From Chryseobacterium balustinum (lineage in GTDB: Bacteria > Bacteroidota > Bacteroidia > Flavobacteriales > Weeksellaceae): 64,000 bases of DNA. The stretch lies in contig NZ_FUZE01000005.1 of assembly GCF_900168205.1 (NCBI RefSeq), forward strand, positions 62,001 to 126,000, read 5' to 3'. The notes beneath the pieces are model-generated. The model saw only the letters and a list, made by a program, of their open reading frames with translations, was not told the DNA's origin and made no database searches. This document shows positions 14,526 through 33,787 of the stretch, piece by piece (the stretch's first letter is position 1; every line of letters begins with the position of its first letter). Made by a program: the position numbers and the translations under genes.

Positions 14526-14619
14526 AAATCTTAGTTTTGATACATATAATATATCAAACAGTTGTCCACTTATTCGTATCGGACTTTATGTCAGTTTTAG
14601 TTTGTTATTAAACTAAATA

Positions 14620-14775
14620 TCAGCTAATTCTTAATACTAGGTTCGTATTTTTTATTGTTGGAATCAAGGAGGCATTACCAAATTTCTCAATGTCGTTATT
14701 TGTCGCAATGACAAGCTCTTCATGTCCTTTAAGTTTTCTCAACCAAGATATACAGAGTGTCAGATAGATATTTTT
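14620..14775 (-). pseudogene. C-terminal fragment of a lost gene
   Basis: Between the CBASS and HerA operons the minus strand encodes about 50 residues, including LTLCISWLRKLKGHEELVIA and TNNDIEKFGNASLIPT, ending at TGA (14622-14620). A stop codon lies just upstream in frame and no start is present. The fragment looks like the tail of a real protein that has been truncated. I do not recognise the family. The rest of the 336-bp gap (14526-14861) shows no other coding signal. Confidence 0.4.
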
Positions 14776-14861
14776 CTACTTAGGTAATTATTAGAGTGAC
14801 GAATATACTTTGTTACTGGCTTTTCAAGTCCTATGAAAGCATATTAGTAGTGGTAGTGCAT

Positions 14862-16667
14862 TTATTTGTACCATTCATTTTTTAATTCCTCAAAATTCAT
14901 GTCCTTCCATTCACTTTTCCAAAGTTCCCAATATGGAATGTCATTTGAGGAAGGTTGTGGATCACATCTGTCTATTTTAACTATTGATGGTAAAATTATG
15001 GATTCGCCCACAAGAATTGCTTCACCCTGTTTCAAAGAAGTCATTTTGTCAACTAATGAACCTAAAGAATCTGGTAATAATTTTTTGACATAACTTTGGT
15101 CGACTGGATTTGTAAGTCGCATTGCGATAAAATTGTTGCATTGTGAAAAAATAGTTTCCGAGATTTCAGAAGGTCTTTGACTAGCTAAAAGCAACGTCAC
15201 TCCATACTTTCTACCTTCCTTAGCAATCCTTTCAATTGACTTTTTTGAAGAACGAAATTTGACTAGTTCACTATTTGGAACATACTTATGTGCTTCTTCA
15301 TATACTAATAATATAGGAACATCATTGTTGATTGTTTCGCTTGGATTAGAATTACACCTTAGTCTTTTATAAAAATATCCATGCTCAAAAATTAATCTTG
15401 AAATTAATGAGACAGTAATGCTTAGAACCTCGAAAGGAACACCACTCAAATCAATAACAGAGATGTTTGATTTATTCGTTGAAGTATAACCTAATAGATT
15501 TTTTAGAGTATTTTCAAAAGATATGGTTTTAGCATCGGTACCAAATAGGAACGAAAGGCGGTCTTGATTGATTTTTTCTTGAAATCTCACAAAAAATTTG
15601 TCAAGTGTTCCCTCTGCATAATCACCTTTCGTTACATTTTGATTTTTTGTAGGGTGAAACTGGAATTCTCCTTCAAAGTACTTGGCAATTTTTTCTTCTT
15701 CACTTAATAACAAACCCGTGTCAACCGTTGTACTGCTATCCGTGCATGTATATGAAGCATCAACAACCATATAGCGACTGGGAGACTTTGAGTTTTTTGT
15801 TTCGTTTTTTAAGTTGTATAAAGCATTTTGAACTTCTGTGATGTCAAAAAACAAAGGAGTGTCATAGAACACTTTTGTGAGATTTGGATTGTGCTTCTTT
15901 TTATTTTCTGTAACTAATTTCCTAAATACCGAAGATTGGTTGTAATTGTCTCTTTCACCAGTATCCAGTAATATCTCCTCAAGTTCTTCACTGTTTAATA
16001 ACCAATACGGTAAGGCAAGATTAGAAATGTCAATAAAATTTGCATTAGGGAATGCTGACTTGTATTCTGAATGAATATCAAAAATGATGACATGAGAATT
16101 GTTTAATGAAAAATCGCCATCTTTTGTTGAAACTGCTTTCTGAATAATTGATGATAAAGTATGAGATTTTCCTGAACCAGTTGATCCAACGATAGCTATA
16201 TGCTTGTTAAAAAACTTATTTCCATTTACAGGAACTCTAACTGTTGGATTAGATGATAAAGATGAGAAAGTATAACTTTCCATTGTATCTATTGATTCTT
16301 CATATATTTTTTTAATCTCTTCAACAGTTGCAGGTATTACATTCTTAGGTGGTATAGCAAGTGAATCTCCTCCTCTCTCAAATTTTCCATCTCTTAAAAC
16401 ACCAAGAGGAAATGCTTCAATAATATGCTCTCTAACATGTTTTGTTTCTCCATTTTCATCTTTAATATCTCGAATTGAAATTTGAAAATTTTCAATTATG
16501 GCTATTAGACTGGCGTTCTCACTATCTTCAATTTTTAAGTATGAACCCACTTTCAAAGTTTCGTCAACATTTTTGAATATTTCTAAATCTTTAACAGATA
16601 TTTTTACTTTATCAGGAAATACCGCAATAACCTGAGCATTCTGCTCAATTGATTCTTCTGTGCTCAT
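14862..16667 (-). CDS. herA: HerA-like hexameric ATPase of a DUF4297-HerA defence system
   Basis: A 601-residue HerA/FtsK-type translocase. An N-terminal HAS-barrel-like region (1-120) precedes the ATPase core, with Walker A GSTGSGKS at 161-168, FDIHSEY (HerA motif) near 195, Walker B VPILLVYEEAHKYVP near 450, and LLLASQRPSEI near 497. Its ATG follows the TAG of the nuclease gene with no gap, so the two are coupled. DUF4297-HerA pairs are known anti-phage systems in which the ATPase and nuclease assemble into a large complex that degrades DNA. The nuclease partner here is not NurA, which separates it from archaeal DNA-repair HerA. Confidence 0.85.
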   Translation of the reverse strand: MSTEESIEQNAQVIAVFPDKVKISVKDLEIFKNVDETLKVGSYLKIEDSENASLIAIIENFQISIRDIKDENGETKHVREHIIEAFPLGVLRDGKFERGGDSLAIPPKNVIPATVEEIKKIYEESIDTMESYTFSSLSSNPTVRVPVNGNKFFNKHIAIVGSTGSGKSHTLSSIIQKAVSTKDGDFSLNNSHVIIFDIHSEYKSAFPNANFIDISNLALPYWLLNSEELEEILLDTGERDNYNQSSVFRKLVTENKKKHNPNLTKVFYDTPLFFDITEVQNALYNLKNETKNSKSPSRYMVVDASYTCTDSSTTVDTGLLLSEEEKIAKYFEGEFQFHPTKNQNVTKGDYAEGTLDKFFVRFQEKINQDRLSFLFGTDAKTISFENTLKNLLGYTSTNKSNISVIDLSGVPFEVLSITVSLISRLIFEHGYFYKRLRCNSNPSETINNDVPILLVYEEAHKYVPNSELVKFRSSKKSIERIAKEGRKYGVTLLLASQRPSEISETIFSQCNNFIAMRLTNPVDQSYVKKLLPDSLGSLVDKMTSLKQGEAILVGESIILPSIVKIDRCDPQPSSNDIPYWELWKSEWKDMNFEELKNEWYK

Positions 16668-17900
16668 CTATAATATGTTTTTAATTTTATTTAGGTTCTC
16701 GACTTGAATTTTTACTTCTTTAATAGAATTCGAATTGTAATCGAAATAAATGTCTTTTAAATAAAATTGATAAATTTCAGACCGTCTACCAGTTAAACTG
16801 AGAGTGTCCTCTAAATATTCCAATTTATTCAGAAATTTAAGTTTGATTTGATATGAAAGAGCTGGCTTTTTAATTACAGATTTCAGATTGAATTCGGCTC
16901 CCTCATAATCAAAACCATCTTCAATTATAATTTCATCTTCTGTTAAATCCTTTTTTAATTCTATCAACTCTGAATTATCTATTCCATGAATATATATATA
17001 GGGGCAAAATGGAGTAGGTTGATTTATTATTTTCGTATAATTCTTAATAACTAGATTTAAGAGTGTTTTTGTATCACTTCGTGAATAGGAGCTTGGTTCA
17101 ATTTCAAAAAGAAAAAACCTTTCTTTGAACAAAATATTTACATTACTAAAATATTCCTTTCTTAAATTAGCATAATGAGCTTTTTCTCCTTTTATTGCGA
17201 CATACCATTCATTAAATAATATCCTTGAATTATTTACCCGATTTAAAAACTCTGCTTTTGTAATATTTCTATTTGATTGATTTGTGTCTTTAGAAATGTC
17301 TCTTAATACCCTTAATGCACTATTGTAAAAATAGAATTCAGATGAAAATTCACTACAATTAAATGTTGTCTTGAAAAGACTTATAATTTCCTTAAATTGT
17401 TTTTCAAATTCAACCGCATTTATGTCAATTTCAAGTAATCTAATAAATTCAATTAAGTCAGCATCACTAAGACCAAGTTCAATGTGATGAAAATGTTTGA
17501 CTTTAGTATTTACATTGTTGATTTTTTCTGTCCTAGTGTAAGTTAAAAAGTTATCTTTTAAGTTTTGAATACTTAAGGGCAAAGCTAATTTTGAATGACC
17601 TGCCTTATAGTAGCCTCTCAATTTGTATTTTATTTCAGCCTTATTACCTAATTTTACCTCTTTAAAATGATTCAACATTAGTCTAATTGGTTCAGCAATT
17701 ACAGAATGATTGTATTCAGTCTTTTCATAGTATTTACATTGAATCGCTGTTGTTTCTGACGCAGTTGTAATGTCAATATCTTCTACCCCTTCTACTAAAA
17801 TAGATTCTGTGCCATCTGATAGGTTAAGTAGAGAAATTATAGAATAGTCAAACTGATAAAAGTATCCTCGAATTGTATCTATTGCGGTTCTGTCTGCCAT
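16668..17900 (-). CDS. DUF4297 (Cap4-like) nuclease partner of HerA
   Basis: A 410-residue protein with the DUF4297 N-terminus: GYFYQFDYSI at 12-21, E37-G-V-E40-D41-I-D43, and Q54-C-K56. Together these form a PD-(D/E)XK-type active site. The C-terminal 250 residues are mixed alpha/beta and probably contact HerA. It is encoded directly upstream of the HerA gene, stop codon abutting start codon. The same nuclease fold occurs at the N-terminus of the STAND protein at 902-6967, so the island carries this domain in two contexts. Confidence 0.8.
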   Translation of the reverse strand: MADRTAIDTIRGYFYQFDYSIISLLNLSDGTESILVEGVEDIDITTASETTAIQCKYYEKTEYNHSVIAEPIRLMLNHFKEVKLGNKAEIKYKLRGYYKAGHSKLALPLSIQNLKDNFLTYTRTEKINNVNTKVKHFHHIELGLSDADLIEFIRLLEIDINAVEFEKQFKEIISLFKTTFNCSEFSSEFYFYNSALRVLRDISKDTNQSNRNITKAEFLNRVNNSRILFNEWYVAIKGEKAHYANLRKEYFSNVNILFKERFFLFEIEPSSYSRSDTKTLLNLVIKNYTKIINQPTPFCPYIYIHGIDNSELIELKKDLTEDEIIIEDGFDYEGAEFNLKSVIKKPALSYQIKLKFLNKLEYLEDTLSLTGRRSEIYQFYLKDIYFDYNSNSIKEVKIQVENLNKIKNIL

Positions 17901-20519: not shown

Positions 20520-21410
20520 CTAAAATTTAGGATAATATGTTATTGGCTCTTTATTAATTAACTCTCCAAAAGCTTGTTGTATAAACCTAAACCAACTTTC
20601 TGTAAACTCTTTAATTGTGTCGTGTGAATAAACATAGATTGGTAAATTTTCCTTCCCTTTTTCTTTGATAAGTCTTTCGTTGTAATGAACTGGGATGTCT
20701 CCTTGTATTTCCGAGTTGAACTCATAATACAGTCCTAAGTCGTTGTAATGAGTAATTGTGTCCCTCGGTGCAACTGCTATCTTTATCCAATCAAAGTAAT
20801 TTGTATGAATGAAGGCCATTAATGTGTCAGTGTCTTTGTTAGAATCTACAGTATGCATAAATCCTTCAAATTTCTGTTTCTCATCTTTAAAGCGTCCAAA
20901 TGTCGTGTGAGGCGAAATTCCTTTGTAGTAATAAGAAAAGAAGCCCACAAACCTGTCTAAGCCAGCTTTTATAGACATTAGCAATGCTTGGATTTCTATT
21001 TGATATTTAGTTCTTCTCAAAACATTAGAATCTCTTGGGTCATCGTCACTAATTGAATATTTAATGTCGTCCCACAAGAAGTCCTTTATGTAATAGTCAA
21101 TGTAATTGTTATAATGATGAAATGGTGCAACAAGAGATGGATACATTGCATTTATTAAAGTAATTAGGTCGTCATAGACATTCAGTTTGATAGGAATTGA
21201 CACTTCTTTTCCATCTACCTGTGTTACTAGGTCTTTAGTTGGAAATTTGGCATGTTCTTCTGGTGATGTTCCCTTTTCATAAAATGTCATTGAAATCCTC
21301 ATAAACTCAGATAATAGATTATCTAAATCATATTTTGAGGAAATAATTTTGTCTGCATACGATTTACGATTACGTTCAGCTTCTTCTATGTCTCTGAATA
21401 TGTTGTCCAT
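20520..21410 (-). CDS. HEPN-like protein in a cassette-like unit
   Basis: A 296-residue all-helical protein. Near the C-terminal third is R-D-T-I-T-H (in IAVAPRDTITHYN), an R-x4-H motif as found in HEPN ribonuclease or toxin folds. The protein has no signal peptide or membrane helix. The coding region is bounded on its 5' side by GTTAGCAGC (complement of 21431-21439) and on its 3' side by GCTGCTAAC (complement of 20477-20485), which together look like the two ends of an integron cassette. HEPN assignment is tentative. It could be a solitary toxin or abortive-infection protein. Confidence 0.55.
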   Translation of the reverse strand: MDNIFRDIEEAERNRKSYADKIISSKYDLDNLLSEFMRISMTFYEKGTSPEEHAKFPTKDLVTQVDGKEVSIPIKLNVYDDLITLINAMYPSLVAPFHHYNNYIDYYIKDFLWDDIKYSISDDDPRDSNVLRRTKYQIEIQALLMSIKAGLDRFVGFFSYYYKGISPHTTFGRFKDEKQKFEGFMHTVDSNKDTDTLMAFIHTNYFDWIKIAVAPRDTITHYNDLGLYYEFNSEIQGDIPVHYNERLIKEKGKENLPIYVYSHDTIKEFTESWFRFIQQAFGELINKEPITYYPKF

Positions 21411-21430
21411 TGTGTTAGTTCTTTAGGCTT

Positions 21431-21439
21431 GCTGCTAAC
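21431..21439. other. Cassette boundary core GCTGCTAAC
   Basis: On the minus strand this reads GTTAGCAGC and lies 20 bp before the ATG of the HEPN-like gene. It is the inverted match of GTTAGCAGC at 20477-20485 on the far side. In integron cassettes the same geometry arises from the R' core of the preceding attC. The upstream attC is otherwise not complete here. Confidence 0.4.
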
Positions 21440-21615
21440 GTCCAAATTTACGCATTGCGTCAATCCAGACTATATTATATTCGCAAAGCCATTTTTGATA
21501 ATAGTGTTAGATTTTATTTTGATGAATTGATTATTAGTTTCATACAGTCTAATTTCGGTCAAACCTAAGTTTTGGATTCACGATCATTTTCTCATCTAAT
21601 TTTTTTGATGGAGAA

Positions 21616-21731
21616 TTCAAAGATAATTATTTCAATCATCAACAAATTGCGTGATACCGTAAATTGCAAAAAAAATTTAAATAATTTTCTCCTAATTTAC
21701 ATTTATAGCAGTAATCAAAATGCTTCCTTTT
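21616..21731. repeat. Direct repeat copy B (about 116 bp)
   Basis: Second copy of 20065-20180. On the minus strand its first part still encodes VKGSILITAINVN-stop, close to KGSNLITAANTT at the end of the small gene at 20140-20394. This shows that a homologous gene once ended here and that only its tail survives. The region between 21440 and 21853 holds no other coding signal. Confidence 0.65.
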
Positions 21732-21853
21732 ACAGAATGACGATTTTGCTTTTTCTTTATTTTTAAGAAAAAATAAAAATAATAAAAATGGAAAAATAAA
21801 AACTCAGTGTTTTTACCTAATTTTAGATAGTTATGTTGCACCTTTCTAAAGAC

Positions 21854-21883
21854 AAGAAATACTAACTCTCGTTAGTATTTCTT
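21854..21883 (-). terminator. Strong hairpin after the HTH gene
   Basis: Thirteen-base perfect arms AAGAAATACTAAC (21854-21866) and GTTAGTATTTCTT (21871-21883) enclose a TCTC loop. It lies 14 bp after the stop of the minus-strand HTH gene and is followed on that strand by a moderately U-rich stretch. It probably ends HTH transcription. Confidence 0.55.
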
Positions 21884-21897
21884 CATATTTTCTTATT

Positions 21898-22119
21898 TTA
21901 AAGTCCAACCATTTCAAAGAATTTAGATAACTTGATATTCTTAGCTTCACAAATTCTCATTATAGTAATTAAACTAATTTGGTAAGTAGTATCTTCTCTG
22001 ATCCTTCTAACAGTTTTTTCGTCAAGATTATTTTCGGTTGCAAACTGACTATTATTATTCAAGGGAACAACCCACGTATCCCTTATAAATTCAACAATCT
22101 TTCTATTTGTAACTTTCAT
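21898..22119 (-). CDS. Small HTH transcriptional regulator
   Basis: A 73-residue protein with a Cro/C1-type helix-turn-helix: NNSQFATENNLDEKTVRRIR (residues 22-41) followed by a second helical part (ISLITIMRICEAKNIKLSKF). It is transcribed divergently from the RNA and sigma-dCas12f locus. The 81-bp gap to the start of the predicted RNA contains a perfect 8-bp inverted repeat (22151-22172). The simplest reading is that it represses itself and the divergent transcript. HTH proteins of this size are also common as antitoxins or plasmid regulators. Confidence 0.7.
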   Translation of the reverse strand: MKVTNRKIVEFIRDTWVVPLNNNSQFATENNLDEKTVRRIREDTTYQISLITIMRICEAKNIKLSKFFEMVGL

Positions 22120-22150
22120 AGAAACAAATAAAAGTGATATTCTATAAAAT

Positions 22151-22172
22151 AATTCGGACTCAAATCCGAATT
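22151..22172. promoter_or_regulatory. Inverted-repeat operator between divergent units
   Basis: AATTCGGA (22151-22158) and TCCGAATT (22165-22172) form a perfect 8-bp inverted repeat with a 6-bp spacer. It lies 32 bp upstream of the HTH gene start and 15 bp before a TATATTTG promoter element facing the other way. Binding by the adjacent HTH protein is inferred from position and symmetry. Confidence 0.55.
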
Positions 22173-22186
22173 GTCATAATTTTTTA

Positions 22187-22194
22187 TATATTTG
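22187..22194 (+). promoter_or_regulatory. TATATTTG -7 element for the upstream RNA
   Basis: TATATTTG fits the Bacteroidota -7 consensus TAnnTTTG. A TTG at 22171-22173 lies only 13 bp upstream, shorter than the usual -33/-7 spacing, and overlaps the operator. The predicted start, about 22200, coincides with the first hairpin of the structured RNA. Confidence 0.5.
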
Positions 22195-22200
22195 TACCAC

Positions 22201-22400
22201 AAGTTACAAGAGTGTAACTTTGCGATAGTTCACAAAAAATATAGAAGCTATTGCTTAGATTCTCGACTAGAAAACTGGCACTTTTCAAAAAGCGACGAGT
22301 TGATAAGTAAATGTGCCCACGACTTCGGCGTGGGCTCGCTTATCGTTGCTTGGTATGCCAGTACCACTAGTCGGTAAGTTGAGTTCCACGCTTTTTCTTT
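22201..22400 (+). ncRNA. Highly structured RNA upstream of the sigma-dCas12f operon
   Basis: Several strong nested stems are visible. AAGTTACA (22201) pairs with TGTAACTT (22213) around AGAG. GCGATAG (22222) pairs with CTATTGC (22248). A large multi-part stem follows: GACTAG (22265) with CTAGTC (22367), CTGGCA (22275) with TGCCAG (22356), GATAAG (22302) with CTTATC (22339), and GCCCACG (22315) with CGTGGGC (22329) capped by a C-TTCG-G loop. The RNA would end near TTTTTCTTTT (22392-22401). It could be a regulatory leader, a trans-acting RNA partner of dCas12f, or a second guide RNA. It has no useful coding potential. The structure is clear; the function is not. Confidence 0.5.
22326..22337 (+). 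promoter_or_regulatory. Candidate dCas12f target upstream of its own operon
   Basis: CGGCGTGGGCTC here is identical to 24497-24508, where the last 11 bases follow the CAAC that ends the predicted guide-RNA scaffold. The strand is the coding strand of the sigma gene and the site lies 164 bp before its ATG. That is the orientation in which an R-loop-recruited sigma factor could start transcription of the operon. The site also forms the 3' arm of the strongest hairpin of the upstream RNA, so an RNA-level role is the alternative. Confidence 0.45.
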
Positions 22401-22457
22401 TGTGCTGAACTAAAAGAAATAAAGCTTAAAATGTGAGTAGAATTCTTCCTTAGATAT

Positions 22458-22500
22458 AAGCAGTTCCTTCCAGCAAAAATTTTGCTTAAACAGACTGCTT
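22458..22500 (+). promoter_or_regulatory. Leader hairpin directly before the sigma start codon
   Basis: AAGCAG (22458-22463) pairs with CTGCTT (22495-22500), and AGCAAAA (22472-22478) pairs with TTTTGCT (22480-22486) inside it. The outer stem ends at the base before the ATG at 22501, so folding would limit ribosome access. Translational control of the sigma factor is inferred. Confidence 0.4.
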
Positions 22501-23316
22501 ATGAAAAGAACAAACACTTCGCCTCGAAAGTTAACGGATTTTCAGCTGTACAAACTGCTGAAAGAAGGAAATCCCGTTGCTCTCAATCATATTCATTTGC
22601 GCTACAAAAGGCTTCTTTTTTGGCTTGGAAAACAAAAGTTTGATGATGATTTTGTTGTGGAAACTCTTGTTCAGGATGTATTTCTTAAACTATGGGTAAA
22701 CCGTGATTCCATTGAAACCCCTAACCATATTCTTGGCTTCCTAAGGTTTGTGATGAAAAGAGATTGCATCTCCTATTTCAACGCTCCTAAAAATAAATTC
22801 GCCCGTTTAATGGCGTCTCTTGAAAGTTTTGAAAATTATCAGGATTATCTTGCAGGTTACGATCCACTACATGATAAAGAAATTCTTCTCAATCAGGAAT
22901 CTGATCAGAAAAATTTTGATGAAGTTAAAAATGTTTTAAATGTACTGGATTCCAAAAGAAAACATATTATTGAACTTTGCCTAGAATATGGCTTTCAGTA
23001 CAAACCCATCGCAGAAGCAATGGGAAGCAGTGTGACCAACATCAGCAATGAGGTAACTAAAGCTATAGACGATCTAAAGAAAATTCTTAACAAAACTTCT
23101 TTTGAACCAGCACAAAAAAAAGCATTCAACAATGAAGAGAAGTCCGAAAAGCTCAGCAGTCAACAGCTAGAGATTATGAAAAGAAGATGCGAACAAAAAG
23201 CTTCATTTGCAGTTATTGCCAAAGAACTCAAATTACCTGAGAAGGAAGTGCACCGTGAATTTCTATATGCGTACCAACATCTACAAAATCATAACACTTC
23301 CGAAATACCTCTTTGA
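22501..23316 (+). CDS. ECF-like sigma factor paired with dCas12f
   Basis: A 271-residue sigma-70-family protein. Region 2 lies at about 20-100, with the core-binding helix VETLVQDVFLKLW at 53-65, and region 4 at about 137-196, with the HTH YKPIAEAMGSSVTNIS. Beyond these, residues 216-262 form an extra region-4-like HTH (KASFAVIAKELKLPEKEV) that ordinary ECF sigma factors of 180-200 residues lack. No anti-sigma gene is adjacent. The stop is 1 bp before the dCas12f ATG, so the proteins are made together. In dCas12f-sigma systems reported from Bacteroidota, the guide RNA replaces promoter recognition and the sigma factor recruits RNA polymerase. That role is inferred here from the gene pair. Confidence 0.8.
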   Translation: MKRTNTSPRKLTDFQLYKLLKEGNPVALNHIHLRYKRLLFWLGKQKFDDDFVVETLVQDVFLKLWVNRDSIETPNHILGFLRFVMKRDCISYFNAPKNKFARLMASLESFENYQDYLAGYDPLHDKEILLNQESDQKNFDEVKNVLNVLDSKRKHIIELCLEYGFQYKPIAEAMGSSVTNISNEVTKAIDDLKKILNKTSFEPAQKKAFNNEEKSEKLSSQQLEIMKRRCEQKASFAVIAKELKLPEKEVHREFLYAYQHLQNHNTSEIPL

Positions 23317-23317
23317 A

Positions 23318-24412
23318 ATGGAAAAGTCCACTATAACATTGACCCGAAAAATTCAGGTGCTGATTGACGTTCCTGCAGACGAAAAAAAAGAGATGTGGGA
23401 AAAACTTTACCGATATCAAAACCGCTGTTTCCGTGCAGCTAATTTCATTGTTTCCCATTTGTACGTACAGGAAATGATCAAGGATTTCTTTTACCTAACT
23501 GAAGAAGTCCAATACAAGCTGGCTGATGCAAACAAAGATGAAATGGGAATGTTTACACGTTCGAAAACAAATACAACTGCACGAATGGTCTTTGACCGTT
23601 TCAAAGGAGAGATCCCGACTGATATTCTGGGAAGTCTCAACAATACTATTCAATCCACCTTTTCTAAAAACAAAGCAGACTATTGGCGGGGTACAAAATC
23701 ACTGAGAAACTTTAAAAGAGACATTCCAATTCCGCTTCCTGTAAAATGCATCAGCAAAATGAGATATGACTCTGAACTGAAAGCGTTTTGCTTCAATATG
23801 TTTGCTATTCCGGTTAAAACGTATTTAGGACAAGACTTCTCAGATAAGCGTCTGATTATGGAACGGCTATTAAAAGCAGAGATAAAACTTTGCACTTCAC
23901 AAATTCAACTGAAAGACGGAAAAATCTTTTGGCTTGCAGTATTTGAATTTGAAAAGGAAAATCACTCATTAAAACCCGAAATCATTGCAGCAGCTTCCTT
24001 GTCTCTGGAACATCCTATTGTTGTAAAAGCCAATAATGTGCGAATCAATATTGGCTCAAAACAAGAGTTTCTATACCGCAGACTTGCGATACAGGCAAGT
24101 CAGAAAAGGATTCAGTCTGGCATTAGTTACGCACGTTCAGGTAACGGAGCAAAACGCAAACAAAAAGCATTGTATAAAACAGAAAATCTGGAAAGCAGAT
24201 ATGTAAGCCATCGGCTTCATTTGTACAGCAGAAAGCTTATTGATTTCTGCATCCAGCAACAGGCGGGAACCCTTATTCTTACAAATCAGGAAGACAAAAT
24301 AGGAATTGCAAAAGAACAGGAATTTGTACTTCGCAACTGGAGTTATTATGACTTACAGACCAAAATAAAATATAAAGCTGAAAAGGCCGGAATCGAATTG
24401 ATCATCGGCTAG
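23318..24412 (+). CDS. dcas12f: Nuclease-dead Cas12f/TnpB-like RNA-guided protein
   Basis: A 364-residue protein starting at ATG 23318 (MEKSTITLTRKI); the longer frame from 23207 overlaps the sigma gene and is rejected. The N-terminal 200 residues match the WED/REC layout of Cas12f and TnpB (YRYQNRCFRAANFIV near 31-45). The C-terminal part follows the RuvC layout (RRLAIQASQKR, SRYVSHRLHLYSRKLIDFCI, RNWSYYDLQTKIKYKAEKAG). All catalytic positions are lost: the first Asp site reads SLSLEHP (227-233), the Glu site reads TLILTNQED (318-326), and the protein stops at IELIIG before the zinc ribbon and final Asp. It should bind guide RNA and DNA without cutting. A decayed transposon TnpB is unlikely given the intact frame, sigma partner and guide-like RNA. 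Confidence 0.82.
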   Translation: MEKSTITLTRKIQVLIDVPADEKKEMWEKLYRYQNRCFRAANFIVSHLYVQEMIKDFFYLTEEVQYKLADANKDEMGMFTRSKTNTTARMVFDRFKGEIPTDILGSLNNTIQSTFSKNKADYWRGTKSLRNFKRDIPIPLPVKCISKMRYDSELKAFCFNMFAIPVKTYLGQDFSDKRLIMERLLKAEIKLCTSQIQLKDGKIFWLAVFEFEKENHSLKPEIIAAASLSLEHPIVVKANNVRINIGSKQEFLYRRLAIQASQKRIQSGISYARSGNGAKRKQKALYKTENLESRYVSHRLHLYSRKLIDFCIQQQAGTLILTNQEDKIGIAKEQEFVLRNWSYYDLQTKIKYKAEKAGIELIIG

Positions 24413-24420
24413 CTTGAAAA

Positions 24421-24515
24421 AATAAATGAGGGTGCTTGTAAACCCGTAGGGTGAGGTCTTGTACACTCACTAAATACTTTTTAAGAGTATATACAACGGC
24501 GTGGGCTCTTTTTTT
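24421..24515 (+). ncRNA. Candidate natural single guide RNA for dCas12f
   Basis: Starting 8 bp after the dCas12f stop, three short stems follow each other: GGGT/ACCC (24430-24433 with 24442-24445, loop GCTTGTAA), GTGAG/CTCAC (24451-24455 with 24466-24470) and ATACT/AGTAT (24474-24478 with 24486-24490). TTGTA (24459-24463), in the loop of the second stem, can pair with TACAA (24492-24496) as a pseudoknot. The scaffold ends in CAAC, as Cas12f repeats do, followed by the putative guide GGCGTGGGCTC (24498-24508) and seven Ts. It may be cut from the operon transcript. The 5' end and exact guide length are not visible. Confidence 0.6.
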
Positions 24516-24553
24516 ATCTTAAAACGAATTGCTAACTACTATTTAATTTCTTA

Positions 24554-26848
24554 TTAACGTTCAAAGATTGCATCAATATCATCTTCACCTGAGCCTCCTG
24601 AAAAATAGCTGACGTGACTGTCTCTATCATATTCAGATTCATAATAGCTTTCTAAATATCTTGTGACCTTTGAATCGATATCTATACTTGCAATAATTCT
24701 AGATGTATCAAATGAAATTCTATCCAGCACATTTTCGTTAAAGCCATCTAAAATGGAATCAAGATTTTCTCTGATTTCATCTTCAATACCGTGTATATCA
24801 ACATCTATTTCAGGATGACCTTGGTAATGGTCGAAAGATTGATTAATATGTTTATTATAATCAATATCTAAATCGTTATTATCAACAAAGCTCCTTAAAT
24901 ATTTTTCAGTCAAGATATCAACTTGCATCAAAATATGTTCATCTTCAATTTTGCAATCATCGACAAAATCTAGTAATTTTTTCAAAGTATCTTCATCGGA
25001 TACATCGTCTATGAAACTGTATAAAAATTCAAAATTTTTATATTCAATTTTTGGCTCAAAATCTGTTAAAATTATCAATAATTCCCACAATCGATTTCCG
25101 CTAGGATTGTTAGTGTTTACTAACTTGTTTAAAAAAAGCTCTACCTTTTTATTTATTTTTTCGTTATAAGAATATAAATAGCATAATGAAATTAAAAAAT
25201 CCCAATTTTTCTCGTCCATTTTATATTCAAAGAAATAATCAAATAAATTTTCAAAGATTCTGTTACCATATGATTTATTAATCTTATTAGACATTAAAAG
25301 AGCATGTAAATAATCTATTGAAAGTATGTTATCTAATGCTTTTAAAATATTGCAAATTAAATCAATTTCATTTGAGTATGAGTTTAGTACGAAATCAGCA
25401 ATTGATGGGTTGAATAAAATATATTCATATTTATTTTCTTCAATTTGATTTCTATTTAATAGCGATTTTGTTGCTAATTTTCGTACACCTTCAAAACTTT
25501 TATCAGAACTATCACCCATATTTACTGTGTGAATTTTTAAAAAAATAGTATAAGAATTTCTTAAATTATCCTCAGTTATTTTTCCATTATTAAATACAGT
25601 TAAATATGTAAGAGCTCTCACACAGTCATCGGTTTGATTTTGAAAATAATCTGCCCAAATAACCTCAGGCTGATCTAAACTTTTGATGATGTAGGTCCAA
25701 TAATTTTCGGATTTTAAATTTCCAATAACAGAAGAGTCAGTTATAAACTCTATTATTCGGGGATTAAAATTTTGATGTTTTATTATTTCTTTGTACCTCT
25801 TGTCCTCGTATATAATATCAATAAATTGTTCCGGTAAGTTTGAATGATATATATGATTGTAAAGAATTTTTGCTTTATCAAGATTAGTCAAATTTTTAAT
25901 TGTTAATAAAAATTCATTATCGCGAATTTTTAAGTTTTGAAAAATATGACTTAAGCTGTATGCTTTATTTAAAATGTTCGTTCTTGATGTAAGAATAAAC
26001 TTTTTGCTTTTATCTTTTTTTATTCTACTTATGAATTTGACAATATGAGAATCTTTTTTATTGTTAATAGCGTCATACATATTACTACCCAAAAAATCGT
26101 CACAGTAAAATAGAATTTTTTTCTGTTCATTTTCACGAAACAAGCTCTCTGCTTCGCTAATATTTTCTTCAACATCGCAAAATTCATAACCTTTTGCTAT
26201 GTAGTGAATTGCCAAATTATCTGCAAGTGTAGTTTTACCGATTCCTGGCTCACCAGTCAAAATGATTACATTATTTTCTTCTAATATTCTTAATCCTTTA
26301 TGATGATTTTCGGTTACTACATATCTGTAAGCCTTTTCCTCAATTTCTCGTATTGTAACTTGGCTTCTGCCTTTTATGGCATTGTTATAAAGAATCTCTA
26401 ATACGCTCGTACTAGTAATCCATAATTTATAGTTTCTTTCAACGATATCTTGATTTTTCTTTTTAGATAAAAAACTATTTAAATCTTCCACTCCCCAAAC
26501 ATCTACCTCTGTTAGAATATATGGTTGGAAAAGTTTTTTAATTTCTTGTTTATTTATTCTAGAAAGCTTTTTTGAAGTGACAAAAATATACCTACTAGGA
26601 TTTAGTTTTTTTACTTTATCTAACTCTTCAGTTTTTAATTTTGAGATTAGTTGAGGATAAGGAGTTTCAAAATAATGTTTGCACTGTATAATTCCTTCCT
26701 TTTTTTCTCCAATCCAAAATCTACCATCAACACCACCGTCTCGTCCGGACTTAAAAATTTCTACTCTATCATTTAGTTCTTTCTCAATGACAGAAGCAGC
26801 TAAAATTTCAAATTCTCGATCATTTAATTTTGAAAAGTCATATTCCAT
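24554..26848 (-). CDS. Mrr-type nuclease fused to STAND NTPase
   Basis: A 764-residue protein. Residues 1-120 form an Mrr-like restriction endonuclease domain, with FEILAASVIEKEL, D37-G-G-V-D41 and Q55-C-K57. A STAND-type NTPase (nSTAND3-like) follows, with Walker A GEPGIGKTT at 199-207 and Walker B KILFYCDDFLGS near 245. The C-terminal 400 residues are helical. Proteins of this layout are found in defence islands and are thought to sense infection and cut DNA. It is convergent with the guide RNA, 38 bp away, and stands alone on its strand. The acidic, serine-rich C-terminal end (SGGSGEDDIDAIFER) is unusual. Confidence 0.75.
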   Translation of the reverse strand: MEYDFSKLNDREFEILAASVIEKELNDRVEIFKSGRDGGVDGRFWIGEKKEGIIQCKHYFETPYPQLISKLKTEELDKVKKLNPSRYIFVTSKKLSRINKQEIKKLFQPYILTEVDVWGVEDLNSFLSKKKNQDIVERNYKLWITSTSVLEILYNNAIKGRSQVTIREIEEKAYRYVVTENHHKGLRILEENNVIILTGEPGIGKTTLADNLAIHYIAKGYEFCDVEENISEAESLFRENEQKKILFYCDDFLGSNMYDAINNKKDSHIVKFISRIKKDKSKKFILTSRTNILNKAYSLSHIFQNLKIRDNEFLLTIKNLTNLDKAKILYNHIYHSNLPEQFIDIIYEDKRYKEIIKHQNFNPRIIEFITDSSVIGNLKSENYWTYIIKSLDQPEVIWADYFQNQTDDCVRALTYLTVFNNGKITEDNLRNSYTIFLKIHTVNMGDSSDKSFEGVRKLATKSLLNRNQIEENKYEYILFNPSIADFVLNSYSNEIDLICNILKALDNILSIDYLHALLMSNKINKSYGNRIFENLFDYFFEYKMDEKNWDFLISLCYLYSYNEKINKKVELFLNKLVNTNNPSGNRLWELLIILTDFEPKIEYKNFEFLYSFIDDVSDEDTLKKLLDFVDDCKIEDEHILMQVDILTEKYLRSFVDNNDLDIDYNKHINQSFDHYQGHPEIDVDIHGIEDEIRENLDSILDGFNENVLDRISFDTSRIIASIDIDSKVTRYLESYYESEYDRDSHVSYFSGGSGEDDIDAIFER

Positions 26849-26981
26849 GTTACGCGTTCGTTTTATCCAAATTTAAGGAATAATAAGTTTTCAATTATAT
26901 ATAAAAGAACAAAAAAAAGAAAAATGAGGGATTGGTAGGAGTTGGCATTTTAGTGTTATTAACTACTTCCTAAACTTTTAT

Positions 26982-27575
26982 CTATCGGCTTTCATAACCA
27001 TCTTTAAACCTTAAAAACTTCTCTGCATCTTTTGGATTTTTATTCATCCATCTGTTCATGAGTTCGGTATTATATTTAAGCTGATCATAATCATCCACTC
27101 GATAAAGCGATTGACCGTTATTTCTAATTTCATTCAGGATTTCCTGTCTGAGCTCGCTCTTGCTGCGAAGGCTCTCAGTGTACCACTGCTTTGCAAAAAC
27201 AATATTTCCGATGGCTGTTACAACTGAAAGAAACAGAGCCGTAATCATTCCATAAAAAACGGTTTTTACGAGTGATGATTTTTTCTCCACCTGCTCAAGT
27301 TGTATGAGTGCTTTATCAGAAAAGTTTGCCTCAATAGTTTTGGGAATTGCCAGAAGAAAGTCTTGTCTTTTTTGTTCTTCTGTTTCCAGCATTCTAGATG
27401 ATTTATCAAGAGTTGCATTTAAATTAATCAAAGATGCCTCTATCTTTTTATCCATGTGCACAATATCTTCACGGGAATTCATGAGCGTAATGTAATGTTC
27501 TATAGTGGCTTCATTAGTTTCAATTACCTTCTTGAGTAGTGCTACGCCATCAGGCTGTCTATTTTCTTTATCCAT
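26982..27575 (-). CDS. Membrane-anchored mobilisation accessory protein
   Basis: A 197-residue protein with a long coiled-coil-like N-terminal half (residues 1-110), one membrane helix at about 113-133 (VFYGMITALFLSVVTAIGNI) and a short C-terminal tail. Its ATG lies 2 bp after the relaxase stop codon, so it belongs to the mobilisation operon. Similar proteins follow the relaxase gene in many Bacteroidota mobilisable elements. It may link the relaxosome to a helper conjugation apparatus. The role is inferred from position. Confidence 0.6.
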   Translation of the reverse strand: MDKENRQPDGVALLKKVIETNEATIEHYITLMNSREDIVHMDKKIEASLINLNATLDKSSRMLETEEQKRQDFLLAIPKTIEANFSDKALIQLEQVEKKSSLVKTVFYGMITALFLSVVTAIGNIVFAKQWYTESLRSKSELRQEILNEIRNNGQSLYRVDDYDQLKYNTELMNRWMNKNPKDAEKFLRFKDGYESR

Positions 27576-27577
27576 TT

Positions 27578-28510
27578 TTATCTAAATTTTCTTTTTTTCT
27601 TTTTTAGCAAATCATCTTCCTGTGCTGAAGTAAAAGTAGGCTTCAGTAATTCCTTCGCAATATTTTCCAGCTGATTGCTGACAGACGATGATTTTTTTTG
27701 TTCGGTAAAATTTGCATTCACATTTTCATTTTCACCAAATTGAATATTTTTTGAACCTAGATATACTGCTCTTTCTTGATTTTCCTGCAGTTTCTGCTTG
27801 ATGTCTGTAATCTTTAATGTACTGGTGATTTCAGAGAGTTTGTATCCAGGCTTGTAATCACGCTCAGTCTGATAATTGATATCTTCAAATCTTACGATTC
27901 GCATCCCAGAGATTCCTACTTTTTCATTTTGAGAAAGTGTTATCCTATAGCCTAAATTTTTCATTGAATCGATGAGCTCGTCAAAGTTTCTCGAAGTTTT
28001 AAGAGAAGCGATCAACGCTTCAAGCATCAGTTTTTTCGTTTCCTTGCCAATCTCAATATCTGTCTTCAGATTCATTTCCCGACAAACTTCACGAACCGCC
28101 TTTCCGAAGTTCTCACCGATTTTGTGAGCTTTAATCGTATTGATACCATGAATATCAACTCGGTTTACGATGAAGTGAATGTGTTTTTGTTTTGTTGACA
28201 AATGAATATCCAAAACCATTTGGTTATTATCGGTAACCCCTATCTTTTTAAAAGCTTTCAATGCAAGCTGTGTGAGTTCTTCGTTGGAAAGTTTATCTCC
28301 AATGGATTTTTCAGGAGAGATGTATCCGGTCAGTGCCCAGTTCTTCACATTTTTGTTTCTGTCGGCAACGGTTTTCATTTCTTTAAATTGGTGTTCCGGA
28401 TCTTCGGTTAACAGATTATTTTGGTAAACTCTCTGTGCAGTTCCTTTATCATTGCCGTTGTATTCAATAGCGATCTTTGAGATGTTTCTGGTCGTTGCGC
28501 TGTTATTCAT
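27578..28510 (-). CDS. Relaxase / mobilisation nuclease
   Basis: A 310-residue relaxase of the MobA/VirD2-like fold. The three-histidine metal site is H103, H110 and H112 in DIHLSTKQKHIHFIVNRVD, and an N-terminal tyrosine (Y17 or Y29) could be the nicking residue. It is short compared with relaxases that carry helicase domains. It is encoded 12 bp after the ribbon-helix-helix protein and 2 bp before a membrane accessory gene. It should nick oriT, which probably lies upstream at 29003-29216. No type IV secretion genes are present, so transfer would need a helper element. Confidence 0.8.
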   Translation of the reverse strand: MNNSATTRNISKIAIEYNGNDKGTAQRVYQNNLLTEDPEHQFKEMKTVADRNKNVKNWALTGYISPEKSIGDKLSNEELTQLALKAFKKIGVTDNNQMVLDIHLSTKQKHIHFIVNRVDIHGINTIKAHKIGENFGKAVREVCREMNLKTDIEIGKETKKLMLEALIASLKTSRNFDELIDSMKNLGYRITLSQNEKVGISGMRIVRFEDINYQTERDYKPGYKLSEITSTLKITDIKQKLQENQERAVYLGSKNIQFGENENVNANFTEQKKSSSVSNQLENIAKELLKPTFTSAQEDDLLKKKKRKFR

Positions 28511-28522
28511 TTTTGGATTTCA

Positions 28523-28978
28523 TTAAGTAGGTTTCTCTCTGTTTTGTTTCTCATACAGATAATGATAAATCAGGTTGGTGACGGTCTCAATTTCCTGAAG
28601 GATCTGCTTCTTATTTTCAAATTCTGAGAACTCACGATGCCTCAATAAATTTTTAATTCTGATGAAATGATTCCCATATTGTAGCAGCACTTCATCGGTT
28701 TTAAATTCATTTATTTTAAGTTCTTTTTCCATGTAAACCATCCTCGCATAAGTGGATAATTTGAGTTTTAGTTTTTGAGCAGATTTTTGGTTTTCATCAT
28801 ACTCAGAATCCGTCACCCGAAAAGAAATTATTTTGCTTAAATGGTTATTGTTTTTCTTTTTCAAACCACCTTTTCTACCGAGCTCCTGAAAGTGCTTTTT
28901 TCTCTTTTCGGCATCAAGTTTCTTTTCATTTTCCTCGACGGCTTTCGTGATAAAGTCCTGTAAGAAATCTTTTTCCAT
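28523..28978 (-). CDS. Ribbon-helix-helix relaxosome protein (MobC-like)
   Basis: A basic protein of 151 residues from the ATG at 28978 (MEKDFLQDFIT); an upstream in-frame ATG at 29002 is less likely. It contains the typical mobilisation motif ELGRKGGLKKKNNN, then ISFRVTDSEYDENQKSAQK, which matches the ribbon-helix-helix of plasmid MobC proteins. It probably binds oriT and loads the relaxase encoded next. Candidate binding sites are the inverted repeat at 29040-29069 and the three repeats at 29130-29209 just upstream. Confidence 0.75.
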   Translation of the reverse strand: MEKDFLQDFITKAVEENEKKLDAEKRKKHFQELGRKGGLKKKNNNHLSKIISFRVTDSEYDENQKSAQKLKLKLSTYARMVYMEKELKINEFKTDEVLLQYGNHFIRIKNLLRHREFSEFENKKQILQEIETVTNLIYHYLYEKQNREKPT

Positions 28979-29039
28979 TGTGTTTATATTAGTGTATTTC
29001 AAAACATTTCTGACGATAGGAAGAAATCAAAAATCCCAA

Positions 29040-29069
29040 TTTACAATCAGCGGTTACGCTTATTGTAAA
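29040..29069. other. Candidate oriT inverted repeat
   Basis: TTTACAAT (29040-29047) and ATTGTAAA (29062-29069) form a perfect 8-bp inverted repeat 62 bp upstream of the mobilisation operon start. An inverted repeat next to a nick region, just ahead of the relaxosome genes, is the usual oriT arrangement. The nick site itself cannot be identified by eye. Confidence 0.4.
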
Positions 29070-29129
29070 CTTTGGGTACTTTTTGCACTAACTGTCTACC
29101 GTATTTTTTACAATATCTTTTTATTATTA

Positions 29130-29209
29130 CCTGTTACTATTTTACTCAGGTTCATACCTATTGCTATTTTACATAGGTTTCCCGATGACCTTGTATTATT
29201 TTATACAGG
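29130..29209. repeat. Three 21-bp iteron-like repeats
   Basis: Repeats start at 29130, 29157 and 29189. Each is 21 bp, begins CCT, has ATTTTA (second copy CTATTTTAC, third TTATTTTATAC) and ends AGG, with the ends complementary (for example CCTAT and ATAGG in copy two). They lie between the primase and mobilisation genes. They may bind the ribbon-helix-helix protein at oriT or an initiator at a replication origin. Confidence 0.55.
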
Positions 29210-29216
29210 AGCAATC

Positions 29217-30092
29217 TTATCTCTTTAATCGGTATGATACTTTTGAATCCGTATTTTTATTTATCAGCCATTCATTTAAATCTTTGAAATCCGAATACAA
29301 AACCCGACAGTCTTCAGCGTTTTCACTTGCATTTTTAATCATTTCTACCGCACGGTTTCCTGCTGCATCATTATCAAAATAGAGCTCAATATTTTCATAC
29401 TGATCAATAGATTTTTTAATGGTGGAAATCATCGCTACCGAATTTAAAATGATATAATCTGAAGGTTCTTTGTCCAAAGATTTCTCTACATTTTTGAAGG
29501 AAAGAAAATCAAAAAAGCCTTCGAAAATTCTTAGTGATTTTGAATCGTTTTTGATGGTTGAAATATCTTTTTTACCCAAACATATCTTTGAATATTTACT
29601 GCGAATTTCATAACCTCCGGAATCGTTTTTAAAGCCAATTCCAAAATAATTATTACCGTTCATTTTGTAGTGAATCTCTTTTAAGAACTCCGTTTGATTT
29701 TCTACTTTTCGACTTATCAGATATTCCAAAAGGGCAGGATGCCGGATTTCTTTTTCGTCAAGTATTTCATAATTTTTTGCAGGATTTTCGAAACTCTGAT
29801 TGGAGATATTTTGCTTTTGAAAAGAAGAAAAATTCTGATTTTCTGCCCAGGCTAGAATTTCACTTGTAGTCTTATTCAAATATTTTTTCAAAAGGCGTAC
29901 GTTGTTACCTCCAATACCTTCTGAAAAAAGATACCAGTAGTTTAAACTTTTATTGATTTTAAAAGAGGGTTGGGATTCGCTGGCAAAGGGGTTGAGATAC
30001 CAAGCTTCTTTTTCAGTTTGTTTCGTGGGAAGGTGTCCGAGAGAAAGGAGGACTTCTTCCAACGATATGCGGTTCAATTGTTCGCAGTTCAT
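29217..30092 (-). CDS. CHC2/Toprim DNA primase of the element
   Basis: A 291-residue primase-like protein. The N-terminal part resembles a compact zinc-binding domain without obvious CHC2 cysteines (YLNPFASESQPSFKINKSLN near 32-51). The C-terminal Toprim domain has the conserved Glu in LRIFEGFFDFLS near 187-198 and the DxD motif in IELYFDNDAAGNRA near 236-249. Primases of this size are standard in Bacteroidota mobilisable and integrative elements, where they prime the transferred or excised strand. A promoter-proximal block of TTACCTA repeats lies just upstream. Confidence 0.75.
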   Translation of the reverse strand: MNCEQLNRISLEEVLLSLGHLPTKQTEKEAWYLNPFASESQPSFKINKSLNYWYLFSEGIGGNNVRLLKKYLNKTTSEILAWAENQNFSSFQKQNISNQSFENPAKNYEILDEKEIRHPALLEYLISRKVENQTEFLKEIHYKMNGNNYFGIGFKNDSGGYEIRSKYSKICLGKKDISTIKNDSKSLRIFEGFFDFLSFKNVEKSLDKEPSDYIILNSVAMISTIKKSIDQYENIELYFDNDAAGNRAVEMIKNASENAEDCRVLYSDFKDLNEWLINKNTDSKVSYRLKR

Positions 30093-30109
30093 ATTTTATA
30101 TTTTTTTAT

Positions 30110-30306
30110 TGAAGATTCTTACCTATTTACCTTGTGACTGGTAATCAATTAAATAATTCTATATTTTAAACTGACCTTCGTCTACCTACTTACCAAATTT
30201 CATTTCAGGAGGTAACTTTAGGTATCAGCAAATCTTTCTACTTACCTAATTAAAGAACTAATAGTAAGTAACTTAATGGATTTAGGTAGGTTGGTAGGTT
30301 ACCTAT
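30110..30306. repeat. Clustered TTACCTA/TAGGTAA repeats, possible origin
   Basis: The 222-bp gap between the VapE-like gene and the primase holds many variants of TTACCTA in both orientations, such as CTTACCTATTTACC near 30119, CTACCTACTTACC near 30182, CTTACCTAAT near 30242 and TAGGTAGGTTGGTAGGTTAC near 30284. Such density upstream of a primase gene suggests an iteron-type replication origin or an operator array. Both readings are inferred. Confidence 0.45.
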
Positions 30307-30314
30307 TAAGTATT

Positions 30315-31469
30315 TTAAATTTTCGACCTGATGAGATAACCATAAATTTGCCTTTGCGGATGTTTAACTCTTGGAAACTTGAAGGACGACAATGCTCTTC
30401 CGATTTTTAAATGATTGAGGCGTACTCCATGAGAATTGAGATCAATCATAACTTCTGTAGCAGTTTTAAATTCTTCCAGATTATCAGATGCTTCATAAAA
30501 CTTGCTGACCATTTCTTGCTCTAAAGTCATTTGAGTGAATCGCTCATTGCGTTTTTCATTCTCAGAAATATCTGCCAAGGTGAGTTCAGGATTGTAGTTT
30601 TTCCGTTTATAAGCATTGTAATAAGCTTGAGCCCAGACTTTATCAATATCAATTTCAGATGAATAATTGAAGTTTATTTTCTCAGTAACTTCGAAAATAA
30701 TCCAACGAACGCTTCCTGAGTCATCTGTTAGAAAGTCTGTTTTGTTGGTAGAACCCACGAAGCTGCAAATCCTTTCCAGATATTCGGCTTTTCTTGCATA
30801 AGGCAATCTTTCATTGATATGCGTTTTTGAAATCATCGCTTTCAAAGAATTGACGTCAGCTTTAGCTAAAACGGAGAGTTCATCCAGATTAATAATCAAA
30901 TTTTTGCATAATTTGATTCTGCTATCTTTATCCAAACCAATATCTTCCGAGAGATAATTGGTGAGTTTTCTGGGAATAAAAAATCTTAAGAATGTTGACT
31001 TTCCACTGTTTTGAATCGTATTTGCCAATACAAGACAATGTTTGTTGATTTTCTCTTTTTCTAAAGCACAATAAACCGCTCTTGTAAACCATTTTTCAAC
31101 ATGATACACAAATCTTTCATCATCATTAGTTTTCACATAACTGCATAATCTTCGGATATGATCTTCACCGTCCCAATCTTCCAACCTTTCAATATATTCT
31201 GAGATAGGATTATACTGTTCGATCAAATGACTTCTTACCAAAATTTCCAGTTTATTTATTGGGATATTGATTCCGGATTGAATAAGCTCTATGAACAATG
31301 AATTTAAATTTAGGTCTGTCCACTGCTTATCATTTTTCAGTTTAATTTCAAACTCAAGAGATATCATATTAAATCTTAAACAATACTTTGAATTGAGATA
31401 ATTTAGAGTGCGATCAAAAATAGTTTTACCTTCTGTACCAATTTGATACAGAGTATTATTATCTTCCAT
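30315..31469 (-). CDS. VapE-like virulence-associated E / superfamily 3 helicase
   Basis: A 384-residue protein from the ATG at 31469 (MEDNNTLYQIG); the open frame runs further upstream to 31541 without a better start. The VirE/VapE ATPase core shows YIERLEDWDGEDHIRRL, Walker A NTIQNSGKSTFLR, LIINLDELSVL (Walker B) and FVGSTNKTDFL. This family is found in mobile elements beside primases and acts as a replicative helicase-like ATPase. Together with the Toprim primase it probably supports replication of the excised element. Confidence 0.78.
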   Translation of the reverse strand: MEDNNTLYQIGTEGKTIFDRTLNYLNSKYCLRFNMISLEFEIKLKNDKQWTDLNLNSLFIELIQSGINIPINKLEILVRSHLIEQYNPISEYIERLEDWDGEDHIRRLCSYVKTNDDERFVYHVEKWFTRAVYCALEKEKINKHCLVLANTIQNSGKSTFLRFFIPRKLTNYLSEDIGLDKDSRIKLCKNLIINLDELSVLAKADVNSLKAMISKTHINERLPYARKAEYLERICSFVGSTNKTDFLTDDSGSVRWIIFEVTEKINFNYSSEIDIDKVWAQAYYNAYKRKNYNPELTLADISENEKRNERFTQMTLEQEMVSKFYEASDNLEEFKTATEVMIDLNSHGVRLNHLKIGRALSSFKFPRVKHPQRQIYGYLIRSKI

Positions 31470-31575
31470 AAAATATCTGGGTATTGTGGAAACAGAAACA
31501 AATAAATAATATATTTGTACTTTACTTCCAAGTAAAAACAAAGCTTTTTAGCCTTACTAATGCCATAGTAAGGCT

Positions 31576-31860
31576 TTATTTTTTGCGTAAAGAAAATTCT
31601 ATAGCTTCCTGTTGAATTTCGTCATTAGATTTATGATTGTTTTTTAACAACCATTCATCAATTTTTTTTCTTTCAAAAAAGAGAACTTTACCGTTGGGTT
31701 TTGAAAAGGCAATACTATTTGAATGTACCAATTTGTAGATATAGGATTTCTTAAATCCTGTATAATCTGAAAGTTCTTCCACATTCAGAATTTCCTTTAA
31801 ACCAAAAATATGTTTTTCAATTCGGTTGAGTTTGTGAAGAATGATTTCGTTATTTTCCAT
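31576..31860 (-). CDS. Excisionase-like helix-turn-helix protein
   Basis: A 94-residue protein with a MerR/Xis-type winged helix: LNVEELSDYTGFKKSYIYKL (residues 24-43), then a wing (NGKVLFFERKKIDEWL). This domain is typical of Bacteroidota excisionases and of helix-turn-helix regulators placed upstream of replication genes in mobilisable elements. It lies 106 bp upstream of the VapE-like gene, same strand. It could direct excision, activate the replication and mobilisation genes, or both. Confidence 0.7.
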   Translation of the reverse strand: MENNEIILHKLNRIEKHIFGLKEILNVEELSDYTGFKKSYIYKLVHSNSIAFSKPNGKVLFFERKKIDEWLLKNNHKSNDEIQQEAIEFSLRKK

Positions 31861-32011
31861 TGCTTTCGTTTAACAAATTTAATGAAGCAAAGGTCATTAT
31901 AGAAAAGTATAAAAACAATATAGTCGAACACTTAAAGACTAAATAAGAGGGATGTGGACTAATCCCGAATGTCAAAAGTGTAAAAAAGAATAATCTGGAT
32001 TCGGAATAATT

Positions 32012-33274: not shown

Positions 33275-33276
33275 AT

Positions 33277-33543
33277 TTAATACATGGATTGATTATCGTT
33301 AAGAGTTTCTATTTTATCAGCAACAAATTGATTCAACGATTTCATTTCATCAAAATATTGTAACACTTTAAGTAAGGTTTCAAGTGTAGGATTTTCTCCG
33401 TTCTCAAGCTTTGCAATAGTAAATCTCGAAAGTTCTAATTCCTCGGCGAGTTCTTGCTTTGTGAGGTTTTCTGCTTTACGCATTTCCCTGCACCAACTTC
33501 CAATACTATTTTTAACTTCTTTTATAGTAATAAAATCAAGCAT
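33277..33543 (-). CDS. hipB: HipB-type HTH antitoxin
   Basis: An 88-residue protein from the ATG at 33543 (MLDFITIKEVK); the frame extends to 33567 but that region is operator sequence. The Cro/C1-type helix-turn-helix is LTKQELAEELELSRFTIAKL. It is the standard partner of HipA: it neutralises the kinase and represses the operon. The two palindromes at 33548-33611, directly upstream, are its likely operators. Confidence 0.82.
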   Translation of the reverse strand: MLDFITIKEVKNSIGSWCREMRKAENLTKQELAEELELSRFTIAKLENGENPTLETLLKVLQYFDEMKSLNQFVADKIETLNDNQSMY

Positions 33544-33547
33544 AAAA

Positions 33548-33737: not shown

Positions 33738-33787
33738 AATAATCTTACTTCATTTTTTTGAAGGTCTACTTTCTATTCTTATTTTCA

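Follow-up and report, generated by a model that had tools for sequence, protein, structure and literature searches.

The guide RNA of a sigma factor and nuclease-dead Cas12f (dCas12f) gene pair in Chryseobacterium balustinum probably directs the complex to the DNA of a folded leader in front of its own genes, where the complex would bind, start transcription, and switch on its own operon. Self-activation of this kind is predicted because the first 11 bases of the guide match the folded leader ahead of the sigma factor and dCas12f genes. The window, by which we mean the whole analyzed stretch of 64,000 nucleotides (contig NZ_FUZE01000005.1, positions 62,001 to 126,000), carries the following features of the system:

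21898–22119, minus strand: short gene for an HTH protein, divergently oriented and predicted to regulate the leader promoter (HTH_26, 21.3 bits against a cut-off of 22)
22151–22172, no strand: palindrome AATTCGGACTCAAATCCGAATT, possible operator (sequence)
22187–22194 and 22215–22222 (span 22187–22222), plus strand: two TAnnTTTG boxes, possible promoter elements of what we take to be the Bacteroidota promoter motif (sequence)
22244–22392, plus strand: folded leader, member of a covarying RNA family (model R1, E 5e-33; covariation; fold z of -4.07 for 22228–22392)
22327–22337, plus strand: GGCGTGGGCTC, predicted DNA target, exact match to the first 11 guide bases
22381–22396, plus strand: GAGTTCCACGC, the 3' strand, then a T-run; pairs with 22327–22337 in a terminator-like helix (covariation; putative role in termination)
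22501–23316, plus strand: ECF sigma factor with a C-terminal HTH extension, 271 amino acids (frame, profile matches, and structure match)
23318–24412, plus strand: dCas12f, 364 amino acids (frame and match to a solved chain)
24428–24497, plus strand: predicted guide-RNA scaffold (conserved sequence and covarying stems)
24498–24515, plus strand: guide GGCGTGGGCTC, then a T-run (sequence; 3' end of the RNA approximate)

Judging by sequence matches, the pair belongs to a kind whose structure has already been solved. The sigma factor frame stops with TGA and is followed, after a single base, by the dCas12f ATG at 23318, which opens 364 codons with a stop ending at 24412; re-reading the frames confirmed the preliminary description in that both are intact and 1 bp apart. 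Profile searches with the sigma protein yielded TIGR02937 and sigma-70 region 4 above the cut-off and region 2 below it, together with a weak HTH_38 match at residues 217–244, also below the cut-off. The protein aligned to "RpoE" of PDB entry 9n9q (E 5e-83) over query residues 17–264, a span that covers the extra HTH region. The extra HTH had been proposed as the mark of a new variant, an idea we discarded, as the solved RpoE already contains it. Residues 1–364 of dCas12f aligned to residues 1–365 of "Nuclease-deactivated Cas12f" (PDB 9n9c; also 9n9m, 9n9o, and 9n9q; E 1.7e-162), and with both proteins matching chains of the solved complex, the earlier assignment of the pair to the reported sigma-dCas12f kind holds. 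Cas12f nucleases matched far less well (best E 2e-40). Curated profiles scored dCas12f below their cut-offs (NF040570 guided_TnpB, 55 of 100 bits; PF07282, 13 of 26 bits), and a PF07282 search of the organism's own genome returned 0 matches.

Alignment to the active chain 9nzo_B (506 amino acids) places the Asp of GVDLG opposite the Ser of AASLS in dCas12f and the Glu of QMERL opposite the Thr of ILTNQ, and the match ends at residue 414 of 9nzo_B, approximately 90 residues short of the nuclease C-terminus. We take this Asp and Glu to be the RuvC catalytic residues, and the missing C-terminal part to be the zinc ribbon and last Asp; with these identities assumed, the alignment bears out the earlier claim that the RuvC Asp and Glu are changed and that the zinc ribbon and final Asp are gone. 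The short C-terminus appears to be common to the kind and not a local loss, because the solved dead protein is likewise 365 amino acids long. The structure prediction that had been suggested as a check gave a poor model of dCas12f (pLDDT 42); hence, the fold assignment rests on sequence identity to the solved chains.

Relatives of dCas12f are encoded at 54 loci in named genomes (up to three per genome), most of which belong to Chryseobacterium and its neighbors and share 77–93% identity. A sigma factor gene adjoins dCas12f in 52 of the 54, and the remaining two (L053 and L054) are partial genes; the pairing is conserved in relatives, as the preliminary description had proposed to check. The organism's own genome holds a second sigma-dCas12f copy on contig C19 (L159), 90% identical and with the same guide as that in the window. 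Overall, dCas12f occurred in 9 of 59 related genomes and, across the order, in 23 of 395 genomes and 7 of 108 genera, with five of these genomes at 60–65% identity. Carriage by viruses or plasmids was considered and rejected, as the relatives found there were distant (<60% identity) and confined to 2 phage and 8 plasmid records; search patterns for the system gave no match in the viral_contigs set. The surroundings of the pair fit a mobile defence island. Positions 902–17900 of the window encode an Avs1b-like protein of 2021 amino acids, HORMA and TRIP13 as in CBASS, and a DUF4297-HerA pair, and positions 24554–34927 encode an nSTAND3-Mrr protein of 764 amino acids, a relaxase, a Toprim protein, HipA, and a phage-type integrase, genes like those of an integrative element. 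Of the earlier claim of such an island, the presence of an integrase, a relaxase, and several defence genes stands, and "mobile" is to be read as a description of gene content.

Directly 3' of the dCas12f gene lies a conserved scaffold that, together with the guide behind it, constitutes the predicted guide RNA of the dCas12f, in agreement, at the level of prediction, with the earlier claim that the system has a guide RNA of its own. Reading of the loci placed the scaffold, from GAGGGTGCTTGTA to about TATACAAC, 3' of the dCas12f gene in 53 of 54 (none in L049; cut short in L016). An alignment of 29 chosen copies contains three stems with 16 pairs, four of them with double changes, and the single-sequence fold of the window scaffold was no better than shuffles (z of -0.80). 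The guide start GGCGTGGG follows the dCas12f gene in 51 of 54 loci (absent from L016, L047, and L049) and mostly continues into pyrimidines and a T-run. Some relatives carry two or three tandem guide RNAs with differing guides; for example, extra tandem guide RNAs at L018, L027, L136, L213, and L215 have other guides (TGAGCGG, GGGGCGG, AGAGCGCC, and AGAGCTCC). A search for a CRISPR array in 21500–25500 found two-copy repeats only.

The leader ahead of the pair belongs to a family modeled over 149 positions from 33 chosen copies, with 34 pairs, of which 12 show double changes, and 97.9% of cells paired. Its covariation score was reached by 0 of 500 shuffles and fell when partners were slid. A search of 21400–25000 against Rfam gave no match to the leader and a single chance-level hit outside it (22.7 bits against a gathering score of 114). 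The leader was present in all 22 genomes chosen for dCas12f (weakly in G383), and 13 of the 54 dCas12f loci had no leader by the model. The family reaches far beyond dCas12f, to 50 of 246 genomes and 8 of 81 genera of the order. Within the genus, BLAST found it in 19 of 27 genomes without dCas12f and in 9 of 9 with it, counts that are lower bounds (G009 scored 0 in this search and 2 in another). The difference is too weak to serve as evidence, and co-occurrence was dropped as an argument. Because the leader is common without dCas12f, it has another use, with its sequence kept by RNA structure.

The gene following the leader was tabulated for 46 loci, a table in which three places were entered twice and from which most Chryseobacterium dCas12f loci were left out. 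It belonged to a family of 170–190-amino-acid proteins in 19 cases, was SusC-like in 11 (a label that, outside the organism's own genome, denotes similarity to the contig C27 protein), was a sigma factor gene in 5, and was another gene or none in 11. On contig C27 of the organism's own genome, the leader precedes a SusC-type receptor (TonB plug) and then SusD. The 170–190-amino-acid family (L168:7083-7619 and relatives behind the leader) has 338 homologues; among the 120 homologues listed, names were "hypothetical" or uncharacterised. Two members had no Pfam match, and five structure models (best pLDDT 75, others 43–48) gave no fold match at E 0.001.

The guide target coincides with two structural elements, as it forms the 3' arm of the leader's apical hairpin and also the 5' strand of a terminator-like helix at the leader end. 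The apical arm is complementary to the leader 3' end, which is mostly followed by a T-run, and in the window GGCGTGGGCTC pairs with GAGTTCCACGCC except for a small internal loop. Across the alignment, 99.1% of cells pair in this helix and 4 of its 10 pairs are changed on both sides, in six cells only; 0 of 500 shuffles reached its covariation score. By eye, the helix is kept even in the odd leader L208. A terminator scan did not report the helix, which its loop limit of 8 excludes. Because the apical arm and the leader 3' end form a covarying second helix with a T-run mostly next, the leader is likely an attenuator-like switch. Upstream, a small divergent ORF is present in 40 of the 46 tabulated loci; when eight such ORFs were tested for an HTH, four scored above the cut-off, that of the window fell just below it, and three failed.

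The predicted target lies on the coding strand, ~160 bases ahead of the sigma factor gene and just outside the region covered by the preliminary description (22501–24412). Beyond the 11 matched bases, the T-run of the guide faces GCTTATC of the leader. A 15-mer around the target has one exact place in the organism's own genome and one with two mismatches, and the other two strong leaders of this genome fit the guide poorly (on C19 at L159, GGCAAGGGCTC, with two changes in the target; on C27, GGCGTGGGTCTC). A weak leader-like place on contig C17 (L219; E 7e-10), before a frame of 154 amino acids, contains GGCGTGGGCTT, equal to 10 guide bases. To compare guides with leaders across loci, we counted exact guide prefixes in the window and in 37 of the 41 loci for which the model found a leader (L013, L016, L027, and L047 were left out). 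A prefix of at least 10 bases occurred in the locus's own leader in 15 of these 38, and outside the leaders, over 1.04 Mb counting both strands, in 0 of 38; in the leaders it was shorter than 10 in the other 23, and shorter than 6 in eight of them. In nine whole dCas12f genomes, GGCGTGGGYTC has 31 exact sites, of which sorting by hand against leader positions assigned 17 to leaders and 7 to guide RNAs; the remaining 7 places had no leader by model R1. The reversed pattern has four sites in the same genomes.

These counts bear on the foremost alternative, namely that the complex works as its solved relatives do, with other promoters as its main targets, and that the leader is matched only incidentally, through a short seed. 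We consider this unlikely, given that leaders hold 17 of the 24 sites outside guide RNAs in the nine genomes; it does find favor in the shortness of the match in the window and in one of the seven non-leader sites, in G019 (contig C18, L116), that agrees with the guide of that genome over 17 bases, longer than its leader matches. The G019 site is preceded by C, falls within an opposite-strand ORF that we interpret as an aldo/keto reductase, and represents either a further target or chance; because of it, our confidence in self-activation is slightly lowered.

More distant relatives were assessed with 12 guides from six places. Seven begin with GCG or GGCG, and the best sites of all seven fall at the same apical place, on the same strand, and after G, which argues against targets chiefly at other promoters. 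Only two of the seven beat shuffles individually: over the first 14 guide bases, the G112 guide and the second G407 guide each agree with a leader of their own genome at 13 positions, which 0 of 2000 shuffles reached in either case. For G378 and G329, all five guides likewise fit best at the apical place, but 168 to 1694 of 2000 shuffles did equally well. In G112 (65% identity), the 19-base pattern GCGTGGGCTCNCTTATTNT, written after its guide and leaders had been seen, matches exactly at three places in 4.1 Mb, i.e., the guide RNA and two leaders, so that leaders are the only exact sites of this fitted pattern besides the guide RNA itself, again contrary to what the other-promoter alternative leads one to expect. 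Six other sites listed for the pattern carry three mismatches. Guide and leaders agree at 17 of 19 bases, and other sites compared at 14 to 16. One of the two leaders precedes the genome's own sigma factor gene, and the other lies 340 kb away, ahead of a SusC-like gene of 1014 amino acids. The remaining 5 of the 12 distant guides (the first of G407, three of G354, and one of L047) are not aimed at the apical site, and their failure to fit a leader speaks for other promoters, as does the genome search with the G354 guides, whose two exact sites are both guide RNAs (two more sites have two mismatches). Guides with CCTTCCC, at L165 (G354) and L047, fit no leader tested. That guides point to leaders stands out clearly in two of the distant genomes and in many Chryseobacterium loci; for other loci the rule is tentative. 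Among 39 leaders read, a G stands before the apical GC in 38 and a T in L209 (2 of the 41 rows were unread), and this G is also paired within the leader; relative to the G112 guide, that of Chryseobacterium carries one additional G.

Taken as self-activation, the arrangement suggests a sequence of steps. The divergent HTH protein would regulate the leader promoter, and RNA started there would pair the apical strand (22327–22337) with the 3' strand (22381–22391) ahead of the T-run and stop. The published dCas12f-sigmaE system reportedly has a 5'-G beside the target and an RNA start about 46 bp downstream. With that distance, counted from the G next to the target, a guided complex sitting at the apical strand would start RNA near 22373, a position that by its coordinates falls between the 5' and the 3' strand of the terminator. 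Because this start lies past the 5' strand, the guided transcript would likely escape the terminator, which could not form without that strand, and would read through into the sigma factor and dCas12f genes. In relatives such as G112, leader-led SusC-like genes would also be switched on by the guide.

Two further explanations were weighed. In an antisense switch, the guide RNA would pair with the 3' strand of the leader RNA and prevent termination, helped by dCas12f. The guide does equal the terminator 5' strand, complementary to the 3' strand bar the small internal loop, and the two strands of the leader covary; we nevertheless judge this improbable, as the agreement in G112 extends beyond the helix (CTTATT), which leader DNA explains and its 3' strand does not, and as one entry of the solved relative names Cas12f together with RpoE, a hint of action on DNA. 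Repression of its own operon by the complex, blocking read-through from the leader promoter in the manner of TldR proteins, would suit a target that lies between the promoter-like boxes and the sigma factor gene and is hardly probable, as a sigma factor gene adjoining in 52 of 54 loci fits activation better.

Self-activation may be one case of something wider. Tentatively, and as a possibility we would not call probable, we suggest a Flavobacteriales family of terminator leaders opened by RNA-guided initiation, in which the guide copies the terminator 5' strand, the start always lies just past it, and the resulting transcripts are unable to terminate. A single complex, equipped in some relatives with as many as three guides, would then open its own operon together with several SusC(D) operons, and the leader would serve as a gate that carries its own address.

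The solved sigma-dCas12f complex points to promoter choice by RNA, and the question addressed here is what the natural targets of such complexes are and how the complexes themselves are switched on. What the present analysis adds is the likely wiring of the guide to the leader of its own operon. A guide aimed at a definable, repeated, folded leader, found also before its own operon, would make a circuit of self-activation and SusC genes that is directly testable. This wiring gives a rationale for initiation just beyond a terminator strand, and through the SusC link nutrient-uptake genes behind like leaders are predicted to be switched on in some related bacteria. The leader moreover adds an RNA family without an Rfam entry.

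Published dCas12f-sigmaE work is said to describe RNA-guided transcription in Bacteroidota. The window shares with the solved dCas12f-sigmaE complex (9n9c, 9n9m, 9n9o, and 9n9q) two homologous proteins, the gene pair, and an adjoining predicted guide RNA; it differs in belonging to another lineage and may also differ in its guide, which is predicted to aim at the folded leader of its own operon. With Cas12f nucleases (9nzo, 9nzr, and others), the window protein is homologous over query residues 82–361, whereas its RuvC Asp and Glu are replaced, its C-terminal part is gone, and no repeat array is found in 21500–25500. TldR is described as a RuvC-dead protein of the TnpB lineage that acts as an RNA-guided repressor (PMC13418256). 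The window dCas12f is likewise a RuvC-dead protein of that lineage with a predicted role as an RNA-guided regulator and, in contrast to that repressor, has a sigma factor gene beside it.
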